Below, one piece after another: positions 54,185-62,754 of a DNA stretch of 64,000 nucleotides. The translations under genes and the position numbers were made by a program. This stretch comes from Olleya sediminilitoris (lineage in GTDB: Bacteria; Bacteroidota; Bacteroidia; Flavobacteriales; Flavobacteriaceae), in NCBI RefSeq assembly GCF_016785945.1, contig NZ_JAEMEF010000003.1, positions 186,001 through 250,000 of the forward strand. The letters run 5' to 3'. Position 1 is the stretch's first letter. Every line of letters starts with the position of its first letter. The notes under the pieces are model-generated. The model had not been told where the DNA came from. It was given only the letters and a program-made list of their open reading frames with translations, and did no database searches.

Positions 54185-54246
54185 TCTGACAGACCTTAAA
54201 TTTAACCTAAAAGTTATAAAATTAGGAAGATAAATTTTTTTTGATA

Positions 54247-54254: not shown

Positions 54255-54273
54255 TGCTCATAAAAATCGAAGA

Positions 54274-56817
54274 ATGGCGAAGAATTTAGTAATAGTAGAG
54301 TCACCTGCAAAAGCAAAAACAATTGAAAAATTTTTAGGAAAAGACTTTAAAGTCGAATCCAGTTTTGGGCATATTGCAGACTTACCTTCTAAGGAGTTGG
54401 GAGTAGATGTAGAAGGAGATTTTGATCCAAAATACGAAGTGTCCTCGGACAAGAAGTCACTTGTAAAAAAATTAAAAGATCTTGCTAAAAAAGCCGAAAT
54501 GGTTTGGCTAGCAAGTGATGAGGATCGTGAAGGAGAAGCTATTGCTTGGCACCTTGCCGAGTCTTTAAAACTTGAAAAAGATAAAACTAAACGTATCGTT
54601 TTTCATGAGATTACAAAAGCTGCAATCCAAAAAGCAGTAGAAAATCCAAGACAAATTGATTATGATTTAGTAGATGCACAACAAGCACGTCGTGTATTAG
54701 ATAGAATAGTAGGTTATGAGTTGTCTCCTGTGTTATGGAGAAAAGTAAAGGGAGGTTTGTCTGCAGGTCGTGTACAATCTGTATCTGTGAGGTTAATTGT
54801 TGAGCGCGAACGTGATATACAAGATTTTAAACCTGAAGCGTCTTATAGGATTGATGCTGAGTTTTCAAATGAAGCTGGTCAATCATTTAAAGCTAAATTA
54901 CCAAAAACATTTTCAACTAAAAAAGAAGCTTTTGACTTTTTAGAAAGTAATGCTAATGCCGATTTTAAAGTTGCAGATTTAACTAAAAAACCAGCAAAAA
55001 AATCTCCAGCAGCACCATTTACAACTTCTACCTTACAGCAAGAAGCATCACGTAAATTATACTTTTCAGTAAGTAAAACCATGACTATGGCTCAGCGTTT
55101 GTATGAAGCTGGTTTGATTACTTATATGAGAACAGATAGTGTTAATTTATCTGACGAGGCAAGAAAAGGAGCTGAAAAAGAAATTGTTGCTGCCTATGGT
55201 AAAGAGTATGCTAAAGAGCGCAATTTTAAAGGAAAATCTAAAGGGGCTCAAGAGGCTCACGAAGCGATTAGACCAACAGATTTTACAAGACATTCAGTAG
55301 ATATAGATTATGATCAAGCAAGATTATATGATTTAATTTGGAAACGTGCTATTGCGTCTCAAATGAGTGAAGCACAATTAGAACGTACCAACGTTAAAAT
55401 AGAAGCTAACACACATAAACAAACCTTTACAGCAAATGGAGAGGTAATTACTTTTGATGGGTTTTTAAAAGTGTATTTAGAAGGTACAGATGATGAAGAT
55501 CTAGAGCAAGAAGGCATGTTACCTGCAATGAAGGTAAATGAAACATTGTTAAATAAAATTATTACTGCAACCGAACGTTATTCGCGTGCGCCTTACAGGT
55601 ATACTGAAGCGTCTTTAGTTAAGAAGTTAGAAGAGTTAGGTATTGGTAGACCATCTACATATGCGCCAACAATTTCGACAATTCAAAATAGAAACTACGT
55701 AGAAAAAGGGACTATTGAAGGTGTTGAGAGAGAATATACACAATTAGTGTTACAAGATGGTGAGTTAAAGGATAAGACTTTAACAGAAAAAGTTGGATCT
55801 GATAAAGGGAAATTAGTGCCAACAGATATAGGAATGATTGTAACTGATTTTTTAGTAAATCATTTTGAAAGTATTTTAGATTACAACTTTACAGCAAAAG
55901 TTGAAAACCAATTTGATGATATTGCCGAAGGTAAAGAGGATTGGAAAAAAATGATGAAAACTTTTTACAAAAAGTTTCATCCTGTTGTTGAAGATGTAAA
56001 AGAAAACGCTGATAGAGAATCTGGAGAACGTATTTTAGGTAAAGATCCAAAATCAGGAAAACAAGTAAGTGTTCGTTTAGGTAAATTTGGACCTATGGTA
56101 CAAATGGGAACTGTAGATGACGAAGAAAAACCCACCTTTGCTAGTTTAAGTCCTGACCAACAGTTAACAACTATCACGTATGAAGAGGCAATGGATTTGT
56201 TTAAATTGCCAAGAACTTTAGGGAAATATGAAGATGAAGTAGTGGAAGTTAATAATGGACGTTTTGGACCTTATGTAAAATATGGTAAAAAATATGTATC
56301 ATTAGCTCCTGGTCAAGATCCTTTAAATGTAGAAATAGAGGATGCTATAGAGTTAATTAAAGAAAAAGAAATTGCTGATGCTCCTGTGTATCATTATAAA
56401 GGACATGGCGTTACAAAAGGTAAAGGACGTTTTGGACCTTTCATTAAATGGAATGGTTTGTTTATTAATGTCAACAAAAAATACGATTGGGATAATTTAA
56501 CTACCGAAGAAATTGAAGAATTAGTTGATGCTAAAATTCAAAAGGAAATTGATAAAGTTGTCCATAATTGGGAAGAAGAAGGTATACGTGTCGAAAAAGC
56601 GCGTTGGGGAAGACATAACATCTTAAAAGGAAAAATTAAGATTGAGTTGCCTAAAACAGTGGATGCAAAAGCATTGACTTTGGATGAGGTCAAAGACTTA
56701 ATAGAAAAGAAAGCGCCTAAGAAGAAAGCTACAAAGAAAAAGGCTACAACTAAAAAGAAAGCTCCAGCAAAAAAGAAAACAACGACCAAGAAAAAAACTA
56801 CAGCAAAAAAGAAATAA
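54274..56817 (+). CDS. topA: DNA topoisomerase I
   Basis: Relaxes negative supercoils. The 847-residue protein starts with the Toprim domain (LVIVESPAKAKTIEKFLG, ASDEDREGEAIAWHL). Then come RVLDRIVGYELSP, the active-site Tyr 284 in LITYMRTDSVNLS, and four C-terminal repeat units (LGKFGPMVQMG, NGRFGPYVKYG, KGRFGPFIKWNG, EKARWGRHN). It ends in a tail of about 35 residues nearly all Lys, Ala and Thr, which would bind DNA. Zinc fingers of the E. coli type are absent, as in other members with Topo C repeats. The start ATG 54274 gives the family N-terminus MAKNLVIVESP. Confidence 0.96.
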   Translation: MAKNLVIVESPAKAKTIEKFLGKDFKVESSFGHIADLPSKELGVDVEGDFDPKYEVSSDKKSLVKKLKDLAKKAEMVWLASDEDREGEAIAWHLAESLKLEKDKTKRIVFHEITKAAIQKAVENPRQIDYDLVDAQQARRVLDRIVGYELSPVLWRKVKGGLSAGRVQSVSVRLIVERERDIQDFKPEASYRIDAEFSNEAGQSFKAKLPKTFSTKKEAFDFLESNANADFKVADLTKKPAKKSPAAPFTTSTLQQEASRKLYFSVSKTMTMAQRLYEAGLITYMRTDSVNLSDEARKGAEKEIVAAYGKEYAKERNFKGKSKGAQEAHEAIRPTDFTRHSVDIDYDQARLYDLIWKRAIASQMSEAQLERTNVKIEANTHKQTFTANGEVITFDGFLKVYLEGTDDEDLEQEGMLPAMKVNETLLNKIITATERYSRAPYRYTEASLVKKLEELGIGRPSTYAPTISTIQNRNYVEKGTIEGVEREYTQLVLQDGELKDKTLTEKVGSDKGKLVPTDIGMIVTDFLVNHFESILDYNFTAKVENQFDDIAEGKEDWKKMMKTFYKKFHPVVEDVKENADRESGERILGKDPKSGKQVSVRLGKFGPMVQMGTVDDEEKPTFASLSPDQQLTTITYEEAMDLFKLPRTLGKYEDEVVEVNNGRFGPYVKYGKKYVSLAPGQDPLNVEIEDAIELIKEKEIADAPVYHYKGHGVTKGKGRFGPFIKWNGLFINVNKKYDWDNLTTEEIEELVDAKIQKEIDKVVHNWEEEGIRVEKARWGRHNILKGKIKIELPKTVDAKALTLDEVKDLIEKKAPKKKATKKKATTKKKAPAKKKTTTKKKTTAKKK

Positions 56818-56822
56818 TATAA

Positions 56823-57989
56823 ATGAATTTTAATTTTCTTACTCCAGTTTCAGATACTGTTTTAGCGCATAATCAATTATTATCGCCTTTAAGCTTAGGA
56901 CAAAAAATTAAAATTCATTCGGTACAGAATGGTTTTCCAGATTTGGATAAAGTTAAAATAGCCATCTTTGGTGTTCTTGAAAATCGTAATGATGTTAATT
57001 ATATAGGAGAAGATTTTAATTTAAACGAAATTAGAAAATCTTTTTACACTTTATATCCAGGAAGTTGGAGTGCGTCCATTGCCGATTTAGGTGATATTCA
57101 GAAAGGGGAAACGGTAGAGGATACTTATTTTGCCTTAAAAGAAACTATAAATACATTAGTGCAAAATCGTATTACACCAGTTATTATTGGTGGAAGTCAA
57201 GATTTAGCTTATGCTAATTATCGTGCCTATGATAGTTTAATGCCAATGGTTAATGTTGTAAATGTAGATAGATCTTTTGATTTAGGCGATTCTTCTAAAC
57301 CTACTAAAAATTCAAATTTTGTAGGTAAAATAATTTTAGACGAACCATATAACTTATTTAACTACGCTATTTTAGGCTATCAAACATATTTTAATAGTCA
57401 AGAAGAGATAGATTTGATGGAGCGTTTGTATTTTGAACCTTATCGTTTAGGAGAAATATCTAATGATATTACTTTGGTGGAGCCAGTAATGCGTGATGCA
57501 AATATTGTTACTGTTGATTTGGGAGCTATCAAAGCCTCAGAAGTTAGTCAGAAGCAAAAGGTGTCACCAAATGGTTTAGATGGAAAAGAAATCTGTGCAG
57601 TAGCACGTTATGCAGGAATAAGTAATAAAGTATCATCATTTGGTATTTATGAATATAAACCGTCTCAGGATGACGAAATTACTTCAATGTTAATTTCACA
57701 GATGATTTGGTATTTTATTGAAGGTTTTAATTGTCGTGTTAACGATGATGATTTTTCAAATGATGATAATCACCAAAAATTCATTACTTTAGCCGAATCT
57801 CATGAATTAATTTTCTATAAGAGTACAAAAACAGGACGTTGGTGGATAGAAATTCCATTTTTAGCAAATGTTAATAATAAATTAAAAAAACATACGTTAT
57901 TACCATGCACGCATCAAGATTATTTAGATGCCTGTAATGATAAAATACCTGAGCGATGGTATAAGGCTTATCAAAAAAATAGTGTCTAA
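56823..57989 (+). CDS. Arginase/formimidoylglutamase-like protein lacking metal ligands
   Basis: The 388-residue protein has the arginase/ureohydrolase fold pattern, and flavobacterial homologues are often called formimidoylglutamase. Its sites differ from active enzymes: GGSQDL (123-128) instead of GGDHS-type His, VDRSFD (148-153) instead of DAHxD, and VDLGAIKASE (231-240) instead of SxDxDxxDP. Thus both metal-binding His and at least one Asp are gone, and hydrolysis is unlikely. It begins 5 bases after topA and precedes gldK, an arrangement I recall as conserved in gliding flavobacteria. It may act as a structural or regulatory protein. Confidence 0.8.
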   Translation: MNFNFLTPVSDTVLAHNQLLSPLSLGQKIKIHSVQNGFPDLDKVKIAIFGVLENRNDVNYIGEDFNLNEIRKSFYTLYPGSWSASIADLGDIQKGETVEDTYFALKETINTLVQNRITPVIIGGSQDLAYANYRAYDSLMPMVNVVNVDRSFDLGDSSKPTKNSNFVGKIILDEPYNLFNYAILGYQTYFNSQEEIDLMERLYFEPYRLGEISNDITLVEPVMRDANIVTVDLGAIKASEVSQKQKVSPNGLDGKEICAVARYAGISNKVSSFGIYEYKPSQDDEITSMLISQMIWYFIEGFNCRVNDDDFSNDDNHQKFITLAESHELIFYKSTKTGRWWIEIPFLANVNNKLKKHTLLPCTHQDYLDACNDKIPERWYKAYQKNSV

Positions 57990-57996
57990 TCGTATA

Positions 57997-58032
57997 GCTT
58001 AACAGATCGACGATATTGTGTATCGTTTAAGC
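57997..58032. other. Two-part hairpin after the arginase-like gene
   Basis: ACGATA (58010-58015) pairs with TATCGT (58021-58026), and outside it GCTTAA (57997-58002) pairs with TTAAGC (58027-58032) with a one-sided bulge. There is no T run, so it is not a standard terminator. It may stabilise or partly terminate the upstream transcript. Confidence 0.4.
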
Positions 58033-58075
58033 GTTAAATTTTTACGACGAAATGTATTTTTTTTTGCCAAAAAAG

Positions 58076-58106
58076 TTGTTTTTCATTAAATAAATAAATA
58101 TGTTTA
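58076..58106 (+). promoter_or_regulatory. Probable promoter of gldKLMN
   Basis: TTG (58076-58078), a 20-base spacer and TATGTTTA (58099-58106), one mismatch from TAnnTTTG. The expected start leaves a leader of about 40 bases containing a hairpin. Confidence 0.5.
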
Positions 58107-58108
58107 CG

Positions 58109-58127
58109 CTCTTAAAAAAATTAAGAG
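58109..58127 (+). promoter_or_regulatory. Hairpin in the gldK leader
   Basis: CTCTTAA and TTAAGAG form a perfect 7-bp stem around five A residues, immediately after the probable -7 box and 25 bases before the gldK ATG. It could protect the 5' end of the mRNA or affect initiation. Confidence 0.4.
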
Positions 58128-58151
58128 TATTAAATTAACCTCGAGTTTTCA

Positions 58152-59519
58152 ATGGATATGAAGAAGTTTGTATTATTAACAGCGGTTTTCGCACTTTTAG
58201 TAAGTTGTGGATCAAAAGATAAAGGACAGCTAGTAGGTGCTAAAGGAAAAAAGTGGCACCCAGAAAAACCTTTCGGTATGACATTAGTTCCTGGTGGAGC
58301 TTTTATTATGGGTAAAGCAGATGATGATTTAGCAGGTATACAAGATGCACCAGCTAAAACAGTTACAGTAGCTTCGTTCTACATGGATGAGACAGAAATC
58401 ACAAATAGTGAGTATCGTCAATTCGTAGAATGGGTAAGAGATTCAACAATTCGTACAAAATTAGCAATCTTAGCTGATGAAGTAGGAATGACTCCAGATG
58501 ATGGAGGTATTGGTGAATTTGCATTTAAAGATGCAGATACAACAGATGCTTCAGCTTACGAAAAGTATATGATTGATAATTATAGTGGACTTGGCGAAAC
58601 TGGTTATGAAGGTAGAAAATTAAACTACGATGTAGATTTGTTTTTTGACACTGCAGAATATCCAGATGAGTACTATGTGGAAGTAATGGATACAATGTAT
58701 TTACCATTAGAGGAGTCTTATAATGGACAACGTACTTGGGATGTGACAAAGTTTAAGTTTCAATACACTTACATGGACATTGCAAAAGCTGCAAAAAACA
58801 AAAATTTAAGTCGTAAAGATGTAGTTATTAGAGAAGAAGTTGAAATATATCCAGATACAACAGCTTGGATTAGAGATTTTGCTTATTCTTACAACGAACC
58901 AATGCATAATGATTATTTCTGGCATGATGCATACAGTGATTATCCAGTAGTAGGTGTATCTTGGCAACAAGCTAAAGCATTCTGTGAGTGGAGAACAAAA
59001 CATCATAATGATTACAGACGTTCAAGAAAAATACACAATGTAGGTCGTTATAGATTACCGTCAGAAGCACAATGGGAATATGCTGCAAGAGGAGGTCTGC
59101 AAGCTGCAACTTTTCCTTGGGGAGGACCTTATGCTAAAAACGATAGAGGTTGTTTTATGGCTAACTTTAAACCATTAAGAGGAGATTATGCAGCAGATCA
59201 AGCTTTATATACAGTTGAAGCAGATGCTTATGAACCAAACGATTTTAACTTATATAACATGGCAGGTAACGTGTCAGAATGGGTAGATTCTTCTTACGAT
59301 CCAGGTTCATATGAGTACGCATCTACTATTAATCCAAGTGTTAATGATCCATATAACAAACGTAAAGTTGTTCGTGGTGGTTCTTGGAAAGATGTTGCTT
59401 ACTATTTACAAGTAAGTTCAAGAGATTACGAATATTCTGATTCTGCAAGAAGTTACATTGGTTTCAGAACGGTTCAAGATTACATGGGAACTGATGTTAC
59501 AGCTAACTCAAGACAATAA
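58152..59519 (+). CDS. gldK: Gliding motility / type IX secretion lipoprotein GldK
   Basis: GldK forms, with GldN, the periplasmic ring beneath the outer membrane in the type IX secretion system. The 455-residue protein has a lipoprotein signal (FALLVSCGSKD, lipid Cys 19) and an FGE/sulfatase-modifying-factor-like domain (GMTLVPGGAFIMG, SFYMDETEITNSEYRQF, YRLPSEAQWEYAARGG, NMAGNVSEWVDS, VVRGGSWKD). It is first of four genes in conserved order. An ATG two codons later is equally possible as the start. Confidence 0.96.
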   Translation: MDMKKFVLLTAVFALLVSCGSKDKGQLVGAKGKKWHPEKPFGMTLVPGGAFIMGKADDDLAGIQDAPAKTVTVASFYMDETEITNSEYRQFVEWVRDSTIRTKLAILADEVGMTPDDGGIGEFAFKDADTTDASAYEKYMIDNYSGLGETGYEGRKLNYDVDLFFDTAEYPDEYYVEVMDTMYLPLEESYNGQRTWDVTKFKFQYTYMDIAKAAKNKNLSRKDVVIREEVEIYPDTTAWIRDFAYSYNEPMHNDYFWHDAYSDYPVVGVSWQQAKAFCEWRTKHHNDYRRSRKIHNVGRYRLPSEAQWEYAARGGLQAATFPWGGPYAKNDRGCFMANFKPLRGDYAADQALYTVEADAYEPNDFNLYNMAGNVSEWVDSSYDPGSYEYASTINPSVNDPYNKRKVVRGGSWKDVAYYLQVSSRDYEYSDSARSYIGFRTVQDYMGTDVTANSRQ

Positions 59520-59571: not shown

Positions 59572-60204
59572 ATGGCACAAAAAAAGATTTCAACAATGAA
59601 CATGGTCTACGGATTAGGAGCAGCAATTGTAATTATTGGAGCTTTATTTAAAATCCAACACTGGCCTTACGGTTCACTTATCTTAACAATAGGTATGATT
59701 GTAGAAGCTGTTGTATTTACATTATCTGCATTTGAAAAACAAGGTGGTGAATTAGATTGGTCTCTTGTGTATCCTGAATTAGCAGGCGGACAAGCAACAA
59801 CTAAAAAAGGTAAAGTTGAAGAGCCTAAAGATGCTGAAGGTTTATTATCTAAAAAATTAGATAACTTATTAAAAGAAGCTAAAATTGATGGTGAATTAAT
59901 GGCTAGCTTAGGAACAAGTATTAAAAACTTTGAAGGAGCTGCAAAAGGAATTTCTCCAACTGTAGATTCTATTGCTGCTACTAAAAAGTATGGTCAAGAA
60001 ATGACATTAGCTGCATCTCAAATGGAGTCTTTAAATAGCTTATATAAAGTGCAAATGGAAAGTGCTTCTCGTCAAGCTACTATTAATGAAGAAGCTGTTG
60101 AAAATGCTGCTAAATTAAAAGAACAAATGCAATCTTTAGCGTCTAACTTATCTTCTTTAAACGGAGTATATGGTGGTATGTTAACTGCAATGAATAAAAA
60201 CTAA
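59572..60204 (+). CDS. gldL: Type IX secretion / gliding motor protein GldL
   Basis: The 210-residue inner-membrane protein has two helices at residues about 10-30 and 35-52. The second contains Glu 45 (GMIVEAVVFTL), the membrane glutamate of the GldL family linked to proton flow. A cytoplasmic helical tail of about 140 residues follows. Five GldL subunits surround two GldM subunits in known motors. It lies 52 bases after gldK, behind a tandem A-rich repeat. Confidence 0.96.
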   Translation: MAQKKISTMNMVYGLGAAIVIIGALFKIQHWPYGSLILTIGMIVEAVVFTLSAFEKQGGELDWSLVYPELAGGQATTKKGKVEEPKDAEGLLSKKLDNLLKEAKIDGELMASLGTSIKNFEGAAKGISPTVDSIAATKKYGQEMTLAASQMESLNSLYKVQMESASRQATINEEAVENAAKLKEQMQSLASNLSSLNGVYGGMLTAMNKN

Positions 60205-60250
60205 TTAGTGATTAATATCAACTAATATTAATAAATTAAACTAATTAGAA

Positions 60251-61813
60251 ATGGCAGGAGGAAAACAGTCCGCAAGACAGAAAATGATTAACCTGATGTA
60301 CTTAGTATTTATTGCAATGATTGCAATGACTATGTCAAAAGAAGTATTATCTGCATTTGGGTTAATGGATAAAAAATTTGATAGAGCTAATGAATTAGCA
60401 ATAGCTTCAAATGATGGTATATTAAGCCAACTTAACACACAAGCTGAAGAAAAGCCTGAGGAGTTTCAATCGGCAAATGAATTAGCAAAGCAAATAAGCG
60501 TAATTTCAGATGATTTTTACAAATTTCTAGGTACAGTTAAAGCCAATGATATAGTGAAATTAGGTGGTTACGAGCTTGAAGATAATGGTGATTTACCTTA
60601 CGAAGAAATGGATAAGGGAGATAAACTAGATGAATTATGGTTTACAGGAGATAGACTTACCAAAAGAGGTCAAGAAGTACTTGATAGAATCGAAAAGTAT
60701 AAGTCAGATATAATTGCAGTATTACCAAAAGAAGCAAAGTGGAAACCTGTAATTGAGAACTTTGAAAAACGTTTTAGTACATCACCAGTTAAAGATAACG
60801 AAGGTGTTGAGAAAAAATGGTTAGATTACCATTTCCAAGGTTTTCCAGCTATTGCATCTTATACAAAGTTAACAGCTATGCAAAACGATATCAAAGCTAC
60901 TGAAACTAATATTTATAACGGTTTTCTTGGTAACTTAGTAAGTAATGCTACTTCTTTAAAAAATTATAAAGCGATTGTTTTGGCTGATAAATCAGCATTC
61001 TTTGCTGGAGAAAAATTTCAAGGAAGAGTTGTTCTAGGTAAGTATGCTAACGTTGCACCAACTAAAATGAGCGTTTCAGGTAAAGACATTGATCTAACAG
61101 AAGCAATTGATTCTACTGGAGCTGCTAAATTAGATTTTAATGTTGGTAATGTTGGAGAACATGATATAGATGGTAAATTTACTTTCTTAGAGGACGGTAA
61201 AGAACTTGAAATACCTATTATTGGTAACTATGTTGTAGTTCCAAGACCAAATTCAGCTACAATTTCAGCTGATAAAATGAATGTAGTTTATAGAGGTGTT
61301 GCTAACCCAATGACTATCTCTTTCGCTGGTGTACCAGATAATAAAGTTAATGCTTCTGCATCAGGTTTATCATCAAAAGGTGGTGGTAAGTATATTATGA
61401 CACCTGGTTCAGGTAAGCAAGTGACTATTAATGTTACAGCAAAACTTGACGACGGTTCTAGTGCTTCTGACAGAGCAGTTTTCAGAATTAAAGATATTCC
61501 AAAGCCTTCTGGTACTATTGCTGGTAAGTCTCAAGGTTCTTTACCAAGAAACAATGTTGAAATTGGTACTGTTAAAGCAGTATTAGAAGATTTTGATTTT
61601 GATTTACCTTTAACTGTAACATCATTTAAAATTAAAGTACCAGGTCAAGCAACAGTAAATGTTTCTGGTAGTAGATTAAATGGTCAAGCTAAAGCAGCTT
61701 TAAGAAAAGCTAGACGTGGTGATGCTATTCAGATTTTTGATATTAAGTCTAAATCATCAGGTGGTCCAAGAATTAAACCAGCTAGTCCAATAGCAATTGA
61801 GCTATCTAACTAA
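60251..61813 (+). CDS. gldM: Type IX secretion / gliding motor protein GldM
   Basis: The 520-residue protein has a single N-terminal helix (MINLMYLVFIAMIAMTMSKE), a helical first periplasmic domain (about 35-225) and three beta domains that reach towards the GldK-GldN ring, with FAGEKFQGRVVLGKYANVAP starting the second and PKPSGTIAGKSQGSLPRNN in the last. It transmits the force generated by the GldL-GldM motor. The gap to gldL is 46 bases and to gldN 41. Confidence 0.96.
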   Translation: MAGGKQSARQKMINLMYLVFIAMIAMTMSKEVLSAFGLMDKKFDRANELAIASNDGILSQLNTQAEEKPEEFQSANELAKQISVISDDFYKFLGTVKANDIVKLGGYELEDNGDLPYEEMDKGDKLDELWFTGDRLTKRGQEVLDRIEKYKSDIIAVLPKEAKWKPVIENFEKRFSTSPVKDNEGVEKKWLDYHFQGFPAIASYTKLTAMQNDIKATETNIYNGFLGNLVSNATSLKNYKAIVLADKSAFFAGEKFQGRVVLGKYANVAPTKMSVSGKDIDLTEAIDSTGAAKLDFNVGNVGEHDIDGKFTFLEDGKELEIPIIGNYVVVPRPNSATISADKMNVVYRGVANPMTISFAGVPDNKVNASASGLSSKGGGKYIMTPGSGKQVTINVTAKLDDGSSASDRAVFRIKDIPKPSGTIAGKSQGSLPRNNVEIGTVKAVLEDFDFDLPLTVTSFKIKVPGQATVNVSGSRLNGQAKAALRKARRGDAIQIFDIKSKSSGGPRIKPASPIAIELSN

Positions 61814-61854
61814 TCAAACTAAATTTGATTAATAAATTATAAAATAAATTTCAG

Positions 61855-62754
61855 ATGAATTATAAATCTTTATTAGCAGTTGTTTTCGGAGTATGTTTTG
61901 CATCTCAATCAGTTGCACAATCTAATATTCTAAATGCTAAATCTCCAGATGAGATTGGTGTAAGAACAGAGGAACAAATAGCATTAGATAATGATAGACC
62001 ATTAGAATATGGTTATGTTGATGATAGAGATATTATGTTTGCAAAAATGACTTGGGAGAAAGTTGTTTTAGACGAGCGTGTAAACTTTCCATTATATTAT
62101 CCTGTTGATACTAATAATATAGGTAGTGAAAGACGTTCTCTATTTGATGTTCTAACTAAGGCTATCGATGAAGGTAAAATTGAAAATGTTTATAACGATT
62201 CATATTTTACTGGTAGACGTACTAAAAAAGAATTAGAGCAAATTAGAACAGCAGTTGATACTATGGATATTGGTTACGATCAGTTAAATGCTGATGGTTT
62301 TGTAGATCCTGAGTATATTACAACTACAACTATTGCTTCTTATGATGTATCAGCATACTTAATCAAAGGATTATGGTATTTTGATAAGCGTCAAGGTGAA
62401 TTAAAATATAGATTGTTAGGTCTTGCTCCAGCTGCACCAGATGTTAACTACGTTAACTCAAATGATGAAGCTAACAAAGAGCCAATTCCTTTATTTTGGA
62501 TTTTCTATCCAGATGCAAGAAGTATTTTACATGAGTCTAAAGCTTTTAATGCTAAAAATAGTGCAATGCCTTTTTCTTTTGATCACATATTAAACTCTAG
62601 ACGTTTTAATAGTGTAATTTATAAAGAAGAAAACGTATTTGGAGACAGAAAAGTTGAAGATTATGTTGCAGAAAATGCTTTAATGCAATTATTAGAGTCT
62701 GAAAGAATAAAAGAAAAAATTAGAAACTTTGAGTTAGACATGTGGTCTTACTAA
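61855..62754 (+). CDS. gldN: Type IX secretion / gliding motility protein GldN
   Basis: The 299-residue periplasmic partner of GldK has a signal peptide (to about 22, QSVAQ), then RDIMFAKMTWEKVVLDERVN, IKGLWYFDKRQGELKYRLLG and the region IPLFWIFYPDARSILHESKAF typical of GldN/PorN. It closes the operon and is followed by a strong terminator. Confidence 0.96.
   Translation: MNYKSLLAVVFGVCFASQSVAQSNILNAKSPDEIGVRTEEQIALDNDRPLEYGYVDDRDIMFAKMTWEKVVLDERVNFPLYYPVDTNNIGSERRSLFDVLTKAIDEGKIENVYNDSYFTGRRTKKELEQIRTAVDTMDIGYDQLNADGFVDPEYITTTTIASYDVSAYLIKGLWYFDKRQGELKYRLLGLAPAAPDVNYVNSNDEANKEPIPLFWIFYPDARSILHESKAFNAKNSAMPFSFDHILNSRRFNSVIYKEENVFGDRKVEDYVAENALMQLLESERIKEKIRNFELDMWSY

Follow-up and report, generated by a model that had tools for sequence, protein, structure and literature searches.

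An active ureohydrolase needs six metal ligands, two histidines and four aspartates, which are spread over three motifs. Members of this superfamily that depart from the rule have been described in both eukaryotes and enzyme complexes. An arginase-like protein of Trypanosoma brucei reportedly evolved without a binuclear manganese cluster, to go by the title of the work by Hai et al. in 2015; this protein is eukaryotic and nearer to arginase. The same protein is called inactive in a further paper (PMC10820115). A second case is MefH-beta, the inactive subunit of metformin hydrolase, in which four of the six ligands are replaced, no metal is present in the crystal, and function is achieved in a heterohexamer with an active alpha subunit (PMC11399263). 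The structure entry 8ryi carries the name MefH, and the related entries 8snf, 8sp2 and 8snk name the enzyme MfmAB. Finally, HutG, the formimidoylglutamase represented by TIGR01227 and by the structures 4mxr and 3m1r, provides the catalytic point of comparison for the gene described here.

This gene, for which the working name PArg is used, is an ATG-started ORF of 388 codons at positions 56823 to 57989 of the forward strand of the window, the 64,000-nucleotide stretch of Olleya sediminilitoris DNA that was analysed, and would encode a pseudo-ureohydrolase of 388 aa. A first-pass annotation had placed it between topA and gldK, and the neighbours have been confirmed with NCBIfam models. The gene for DNA topoisomerase I, topA (54271 to 56817, forward strand; TIGR01051, 709.3 bits against a cut-off of 456.4), ends in a stop codon that lies 5 nt upstream of the PArg ATG. 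On the other side, gldK (58152 to 59519, forward strand; TIGR03525, 587.7 bits against 350) encodes the ring lipoprotein of the T9SS and is the first gene of gldKLMN, being followed by gldL, gldM and gldN (59572 to 62754, forward strand; TIGR03513, TIGR03517 and TIGR03523, each above its cut-off). The mechanically called ORF of topA starts at a TTG at 54241; an alternative start, MAKNLVIVESPAKAKTIE, lies at 54271 and is alike in locus L066. A second, partial GldM-like match, in a 211-aa frame at G000:C4:69112-69627, scored 57.5 bits and fell under the cut-off.

PArg is matched by the Pfam family PF00491 with an E-value of 5.6e-14 and 52.7 bits (cut-off 22), and by homology together with its modelled fold it is a member of the ureohydrolase (arginase) superfamily by descent. 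Its best NCBIfam match is TIGR01227 (hutG), at 71.8 bits against a curated cut-off of 229.15, and two PArg homologues likewise stay below that cut-off, at 99.1 and 99.4 bits; the early warning that the name formimidoylglutamase would mislead has thus proved sound. PArg resembles HutG in fold, best NCBIfam match and tree position, but differs from it in the sub-cut-off score, in the replacement of three of the six ligands, and in an extra C-terminal domain. Two further PF00491 genes occur in the Olleya genome, both with an intact DAH.D motif. No signal peptide was seen by eye in PArg, and the protein is probably cytoplasmic.

The fold of PArg was predicted with AlphaFold2, where the best model had a mean pLDDT of 87.6 and a pTM of 0.90 (the four other models, 74.7–78.9). 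Residues 21–306 of this model superimpose on the T. cruzi formiminoglutamase 4mxr with a Z-score of 32.3 and an rmsd of 2.4 over 272 residues, and residues 22–307 match the Bacillus subtilis structure 3m1r with a Z-score of 29.6; metformin hydrolase also ranks high among the fold matches. Almost none of the fold matches of the full model extends into the C-terminal part. This private domain (residues 307–388; 57741 to 57986, forward strand) carries RWW, PC and DY signatures and the invariant residues W340 and C362, whose columns are empty in all 18 aligned enzymes. When residues 306–388 were modelled alone, pLDDT was 78.8 and pTM 0.69, and fold searches with the domain gave no credible match among the families listed (best Foldseek E-value 0.87; best VIA-align Z-score 3.3). 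Its profile found a single match among PDB sequences, an antibody at an E-value of 1.6 that is not credible, and among 34 PArg members no Pfam family other than PF00491 recurred above chance level.

The three motifs that had been singled out as altered are present as described, beginning at residues 123, 148 and 231. In GGSQDL (residues 123–128; 57189 to 57206, forward strand), Gln126 occupies the position of the first His ligand; in VDRSFD (residues 148–153; 57264 to 57281, forward strand), Ser151 replaces the second His, with Asp149 and Asp153 kept; and in VDLGAIK (residues 231–237; 57513 to 57533, forward strand), Asp232 is kept and Gly234 stands for the last Asp ligand. Aligned with enzymes of the same phylum, the Olleya protein therefore shows substitutions at three of the six ligand positions (Gln126 and Ser151 for His, Gly234 for Asp) and retains D149, D153 and D232, so that its earlier description as metal-ligand-less was half right: three ligands are lost, but three aspartates are still in place. 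An active ureohydrolase has six ligands, and PArg has three of these.

The same pattern extends through the class. Ligands were counted in loci whose profile match begins no later than position 110 and reaches at least 365 (271 loci, 236 of them distinct), a span that makes the C-terminal domain part of the definition of PArg and places fragments and divergent copies outside the set. Among these 236 distinct full-length homologues, the first His is present in 19 (Gln in 198), the second His in 5 and the last Asp in 8, while Asp149, Asp153 and Asp232 are found in 220, 207 and 222, respectively. Three ligands are kept in 185 homologues, four in 21, and two or fewer in 30; none of the 236 has five or six. 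No homologue with intact ligands was thus encountered in this set when the conservation of the altered residues was checked, in support of the earlier proposal of a pseudo-enzyme within the superfamily.

How far these losses reach depends on which ligands serve which metal. In rat arginase, the second His and the last Asp serve one metal site, the first His and the middle Asp serve the other, and two aspartates are common to both. If this assignment is right, one site of PArg would be destroyed almost everywhere, the other only damaged. A report on a Zymomonas arginase describes two bound metals despite a Cys at the first-His position (PMC6988801), and T. cruzi formiminoglutamase has an Asn there in our alignment. 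Gln126 alone would consequently prove nothing, and the telling change in PArg, judged from the aligned sequences, is that the second His and the last Asp are gone.

Eight positions outside the metal site (R71, G90, E220, R224, G251, W296, W340 and C362) do not vary in any of the 236 distinct full-length homologues, and C258 is found in 230 of them. R71, G90 and G251 are also common in enzymes (16, 17 and 18 of 18, respectively). The remaining five of the eight invariant residues are rare or absent there; E220 and W296 are each shared by 2 of 18 enzymes, whose five commonest letters at the position of R224 do not include Arg. E220 and R224 together form the signature E220-P-x-x-R224 (57480 to 57494, forward strand). 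An instructive case is provided by lineage f5, which we guess to be Weeksellaceae. Five of its sequences (L071–L075) have lost both His ligands as well as D149, D153 and D232, leaving only the last Asp ligand, and still hold E220, R224, C258, W296, W340 and C362; a sixth, L076, keeps the three aspartates. Since the f5 sequences lose ligands and keep the other residues, the feature that selection preserves throughout PArg is not the metal site.

It is conceivable that PArg is instead a new or one-metal enzyme, in which the three aspartates and Gln126 hold a single metal or E220, R224, C258 and C362 make up a new active site. Such an activity would be in keeping with the frequent retention of Asp149, Asp153 and Asp232, with the replaceable first His of the Zymomonas and T. 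cruzi enzymes, and with an invariant C362 and a nearly invariant C258. Several findings argue against it: the second His and the last Asp have gone nearly everywhere, 30 of 236 homologues have two or fewer ligands, and the five f5 sequences lack the three aspartates and keep the other invariant residues. On balance it seems unlikely that PArg is an enzyme of this kind. Because the three aspartates are usually retained, as in the 185 homologues above, a one-metal site or weak activity is nonetheless possible, and this weakens the reading of PArg as non-catalytic that is preferred here.

PArg is distributed across almost the whole class. In the family, 146 of 149 genomes have a homologue, and the three without one are 88% complete; a single-sequence query matched 153 of 196 genomes of the order, one too many, as G160 has an enzyme match only. 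The 18 family and order genomes that lacked PArg were re-searched with a profile, and no PArg was found in them. In the class, Bacteroidia, a profile search placed PArg in 276 of 295 genomes; these were counted by profile E-value, and an enzyme outside the class reached 6.4e-44, so that weaker class matches could be enzymes. Five of the weaker ones (G475, G533, G397, G431 and G433) match the C-terminal part, and G512 (1.4e-38) is counted by E-value alone. Beyond the class, the profile matches listed with their range all stop by position 324 and therefore do not include the C-terminal domain; the best of them, L286–L288, have intact ligands except for an Asn in place of one Asp in L286, which is HutG-like at 210.5 bits against 229.15 (TIGR01227). 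A further sample consisted of the best 80 of at least 587 named loci, mostly from Flavobacteriaceae genera with a few broader labels, among which the nearest is that of Olleya marilimosa, at 91%. For one sub-sample of these, L223 and L279 were dropped as truncated, and the window together with 47 of the remaining 78 was used later.

Two copies of PArg are interrupted, one by an in-frame TAG (G123:C1:1746166-1747323) and one by division into three pieces (G393:C1:921214-922323), and each could be a pseudogene or an assembly error. An origin in defence systems or phages was also considered and rejected: PADLOC gave no match to PArg, PHROGs gave one weak match (E-value 0.013), and a plasmid search gave a single match, at 22.6%, in two Acinetobacter records, one of which is annotated hutG.

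The first-pass annotation had further suggested that PArg is kept beside the gliding and T9SS genes, possibly with a structural or regulatory role in them. The position itself was compared among relatives. In 79 context loci with flanks, 46 have topA directly upstream together with T9SS genes within three genes downstream, 6 have only topA (3 of these are at the end of a contig), 2 have T9SS genes only, and 25 have neither. T9SS genes are thus near PArg in 48 of 79 loci, from many families, and gldK lies downstream in 78 of the best 80 of at least 587 named loci. The adjacency of PArg and the T9SS is old and common, but in the 25 loci PArg is next to neither topA nor T9SS genes, so that the link to TopA is not universal. 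Ten neighbouring genes from eight loci scanned as unlinked, one of which (L178) still has topA upstream, encode carbamoyl-phosphate synthase, a PKD/CHU_C protein, a glycosyltransferase, RmuC, an ABC ATPase, methylmalonyl-CoA mutase, a POT transporter and three proteins without a family, and no common theme was found among these ten.

Spacing points to topA rather than to the downstream genes. Between topA and PArg the gap has a median of 5 nt (52 loci) or 6 nt (the best 80 of at least 587 named loci), against 117.5 nt from PArg to the next gene (50 loci) and 154.5 nt from PArg to gldK (78 of the best 80 named loci). In most other families, an ORF of approximately 300–351 aa stands between PArg and gldK (L062, L064–L070, L175–L199); it was identified as PorP/SprF in the two cases tested and is absent from the family of Olleya, where the interval spans 57990 to 58151 of the window. 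The presence of PorP/SprF there suggests that the old gene order was probably miaB, topA, PArg, porP, gldKLMN.

A promoter-like element also lies in the PArg–gldK interval. It has the form TTG-N20-TATGTTTA and lies at 58076 to 58106 of the forward strand; all 12 aligned relatives share its TTG and TATGTTTA unchanged, and it resembles the known Bacteroidota promoter. A relaxed block, TTG-N17..23-TAnnTTT(A/G), was present in this gap in 77 of 78 named loci, these being the loci of the best 80 of at least 587 that have gldK on the contig, against a mean of 5.2 in 20 shuffles; its last base was relaxed to A or G after the alignment had been seen, and with a strict G the count is 2 of 78 against a shuffled mean of 1.1. 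In separate counts, the strict form occurred in 9 of 46 gaps from the window and more distant loci, where single-base shuffles predict 0.5, and in 2 of 75 named loci, against 1.3 expected. Upstream of PArg itself, the relaxed block was found within 150 nt in 1 of the best 80 of at least 587 named loci, and upstream of topA in 10 of 75, where the topA start used may be wrong. As the block is seen before topA in so few loci, the pattern is not a complete promoter finder. On spacing and motif content, expression of PArg nevertheless seems to be coupled to topA and not to the adjoining gliding and secretion genes, although transcription may read through the element into gldK.

Whether PArg could be an accessory of the T9SS or of gliding, as a cytoplasmic factor that assembles or regulates the GldKLMN/PorPKLMN machine, is also addressed by co-occurrence. 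In the 295 class genomes, combined by hand from two lists, PArg and SprA occur together in 273, SprA alone in 13, PArg alone in 3, and neither in 6, so that six of the nine genomes without SprA also lack PArg. This association is strong, yet confounded by shared ancestry. The 13 exceptions among 286 SprA-bearing genomes include eight that are at least 90% complete (G354, G441, G464, G502, G530, G556, G572 and G618), all with GldM save G464, and a second search of these eight at an E-value of 10 found no PArg match. Divergent copies can escape the profile in this test, and since the family of G464 has a very divergent PArg, the copy in that genome may have been missed. Among the 18 PArg-lacking genomes of the family and order, some of them incomplete, 13 have SprA, as do 6 of the 10 that are at least 90% complete. 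Judged by gene content, then, a T9SS can exist without PArg. Three small f9 genomes without PArg (G156, G170 and G181) have SprA matches broken into several weaker pieces, with frames of approximately 2070–2080 aa in G156 and G170.

The converse situation is found in G376 and G585, two genomes of one genus in which PArg is present and SprA and above-cut-off PorV are absent; GldM occurs in G376 and not in G585. Seven other genomes of their family have PorV. This genus (L161, L162) shows an apparent loss of the T9SS translocon, with SprA and PorV kept in other genera of the family, and it seems to be a case of T9SS decay, which PArg seems able to outlive. The third genome with PArg and without SprA, G395, has PorV, with GldM not found, and its missing SprA is for that reason probably an assembly gap. 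PorV_fam is an imperfect marker in these comparisons, being above its cut-off also in G368, which lacks SprA and GldM.

The presence of PArg therefore seems separable from that of the T9SS in both directions (13 of 286; G376 and G585). PorPKLMN/GldKLMN is an old neighbour of PArg, but belongs to a different gene family, is set apart by the promoter-like element, and can be uncoupled from it in presence. A role dedicated to gliding or the T9SS is not supported, given the tight topA spacing, the element in 77 of 78 gaps, the uncoupled genomes and the 25 of 79 unlinked loci, against which the frequent adjacency and the co-occurrence with SprA have to be set; such an accessory function is improbable as a general account, and PArg may have a T9SS role in some lineages.

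A more specific precedent is that of an inactive subunit that partners an active ureohydrolase, as MefH-beta does MefH-alpha. PArg shares with MefH-beta the ureohydrolase fold and a degenerate metal site, with a similar loss of ligands (PMC11399263), and metformin hydrolase was among its best fold matches. In the 41 genomes searched for PF00491, 35 bear PArg, and 28 of these have another PF00491 gene. Unlike MefH-beta, however, PArg carries an additional C-terminal domain and may occur without any other family member in the genome: in seven of the 35 (G090, G043, G149, G158, G171, G448 and G585), PArg is the only PF00491 match. An obligate partnership with an active paralogue was rejected on this ground, and as a general rule the MefH-beta type of arrangement is refuted and highly improbable.

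The ancestry of PArg is indicated by a tree of 42 PArg and 19 enzyme sequences, hand-picked for spread, in which PArg forms one clade with support of 100/99, recovered in all 200 bootstrap trees, although the bootstrap had not fully settled and several branches are long. The clade lies inside the formimidoylglutamase-like enzymes of the phylum. In this it differs from the T. brucei protein, which PArg would resemble in being arginase-like without the binuclear metal cluster that is mentioned in the title on that protein. Purifying selection on PArg is close to that on TopA and GldK: dN/dS between Olleya and five relatives is 0.046–0.158, against 0.050–0.118 for TopA, 0.038–0.177 for GldK and 0.073–0.410 for GldM, with synonymous sites near saturation in several pairs. 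That PArg is a decaying relic held in place between topA and the T9SS genes, as the degenerate catalytic residues and the interrupted copies in G123 and G393 might suggest, is hardly credible and was rejected given this purifying selection, the eight positions conserved in 236 of 236 homologues, and retention also where the gene is unlinked. Degenerate ligands, purifying selection and conserved residues together mark PArg as a selected pseudo-ureohydrolase, and this part of the interpretation is very probably correct.

Taken as a whole, the explanation that we favour, and consider somewhat better than even, is that PArg acts as a scaffold or regulator without catalytic activity and is expressed together with topA. 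PArg would descend from a formimidoylglutamase-like ureohydrolase and would have lost the two-metal hydrolase chemistry, its fold now serving as a scaffold or regulatory subunit with an interaction surface that may include E220, R224, W296 and the C-terminal domain. It would be made from the topA transcript and would serve a general cellular process, which may be linked to TopA, and not the T9SS in particular. An inactive subunit like MefH-beta may be the nearest parallel, but with a partner outside the ureohydrolases. A bolder version, in which PArg is a class-wide non-catalytic partner or regulator of topoisomerase I with a ureohydrolase fold, made from the topA transcript, is doubtful.

A search of the open-access literature, with subscription journals and bioRxiv outside its scope, found no related paper on this gene together with gldK, the T9SS, gliding or Flavobacterium. 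The PArg family was not met in the literature searched, and pseudo-ureohydrolases as such are already known; the inactive homologues that were met there are one trypanosome protein and a subunit of one enzyme. PArg, by comparison, is conserved through nearly all of a bacterial class, carries a private domain, and varies less at certain residues away from the metal site than at the ligands themselves. The best family match suggests a formimidoylglutamase, and the adjacency of gldK invites an assignment to the T9SS, neither of which has been borne out. Were the bolder topoisomerase version true, a fold of nitrogen metabolism would, together with a new C-terminal domain, have been recruited to DNA topology or chromosome maintenance.
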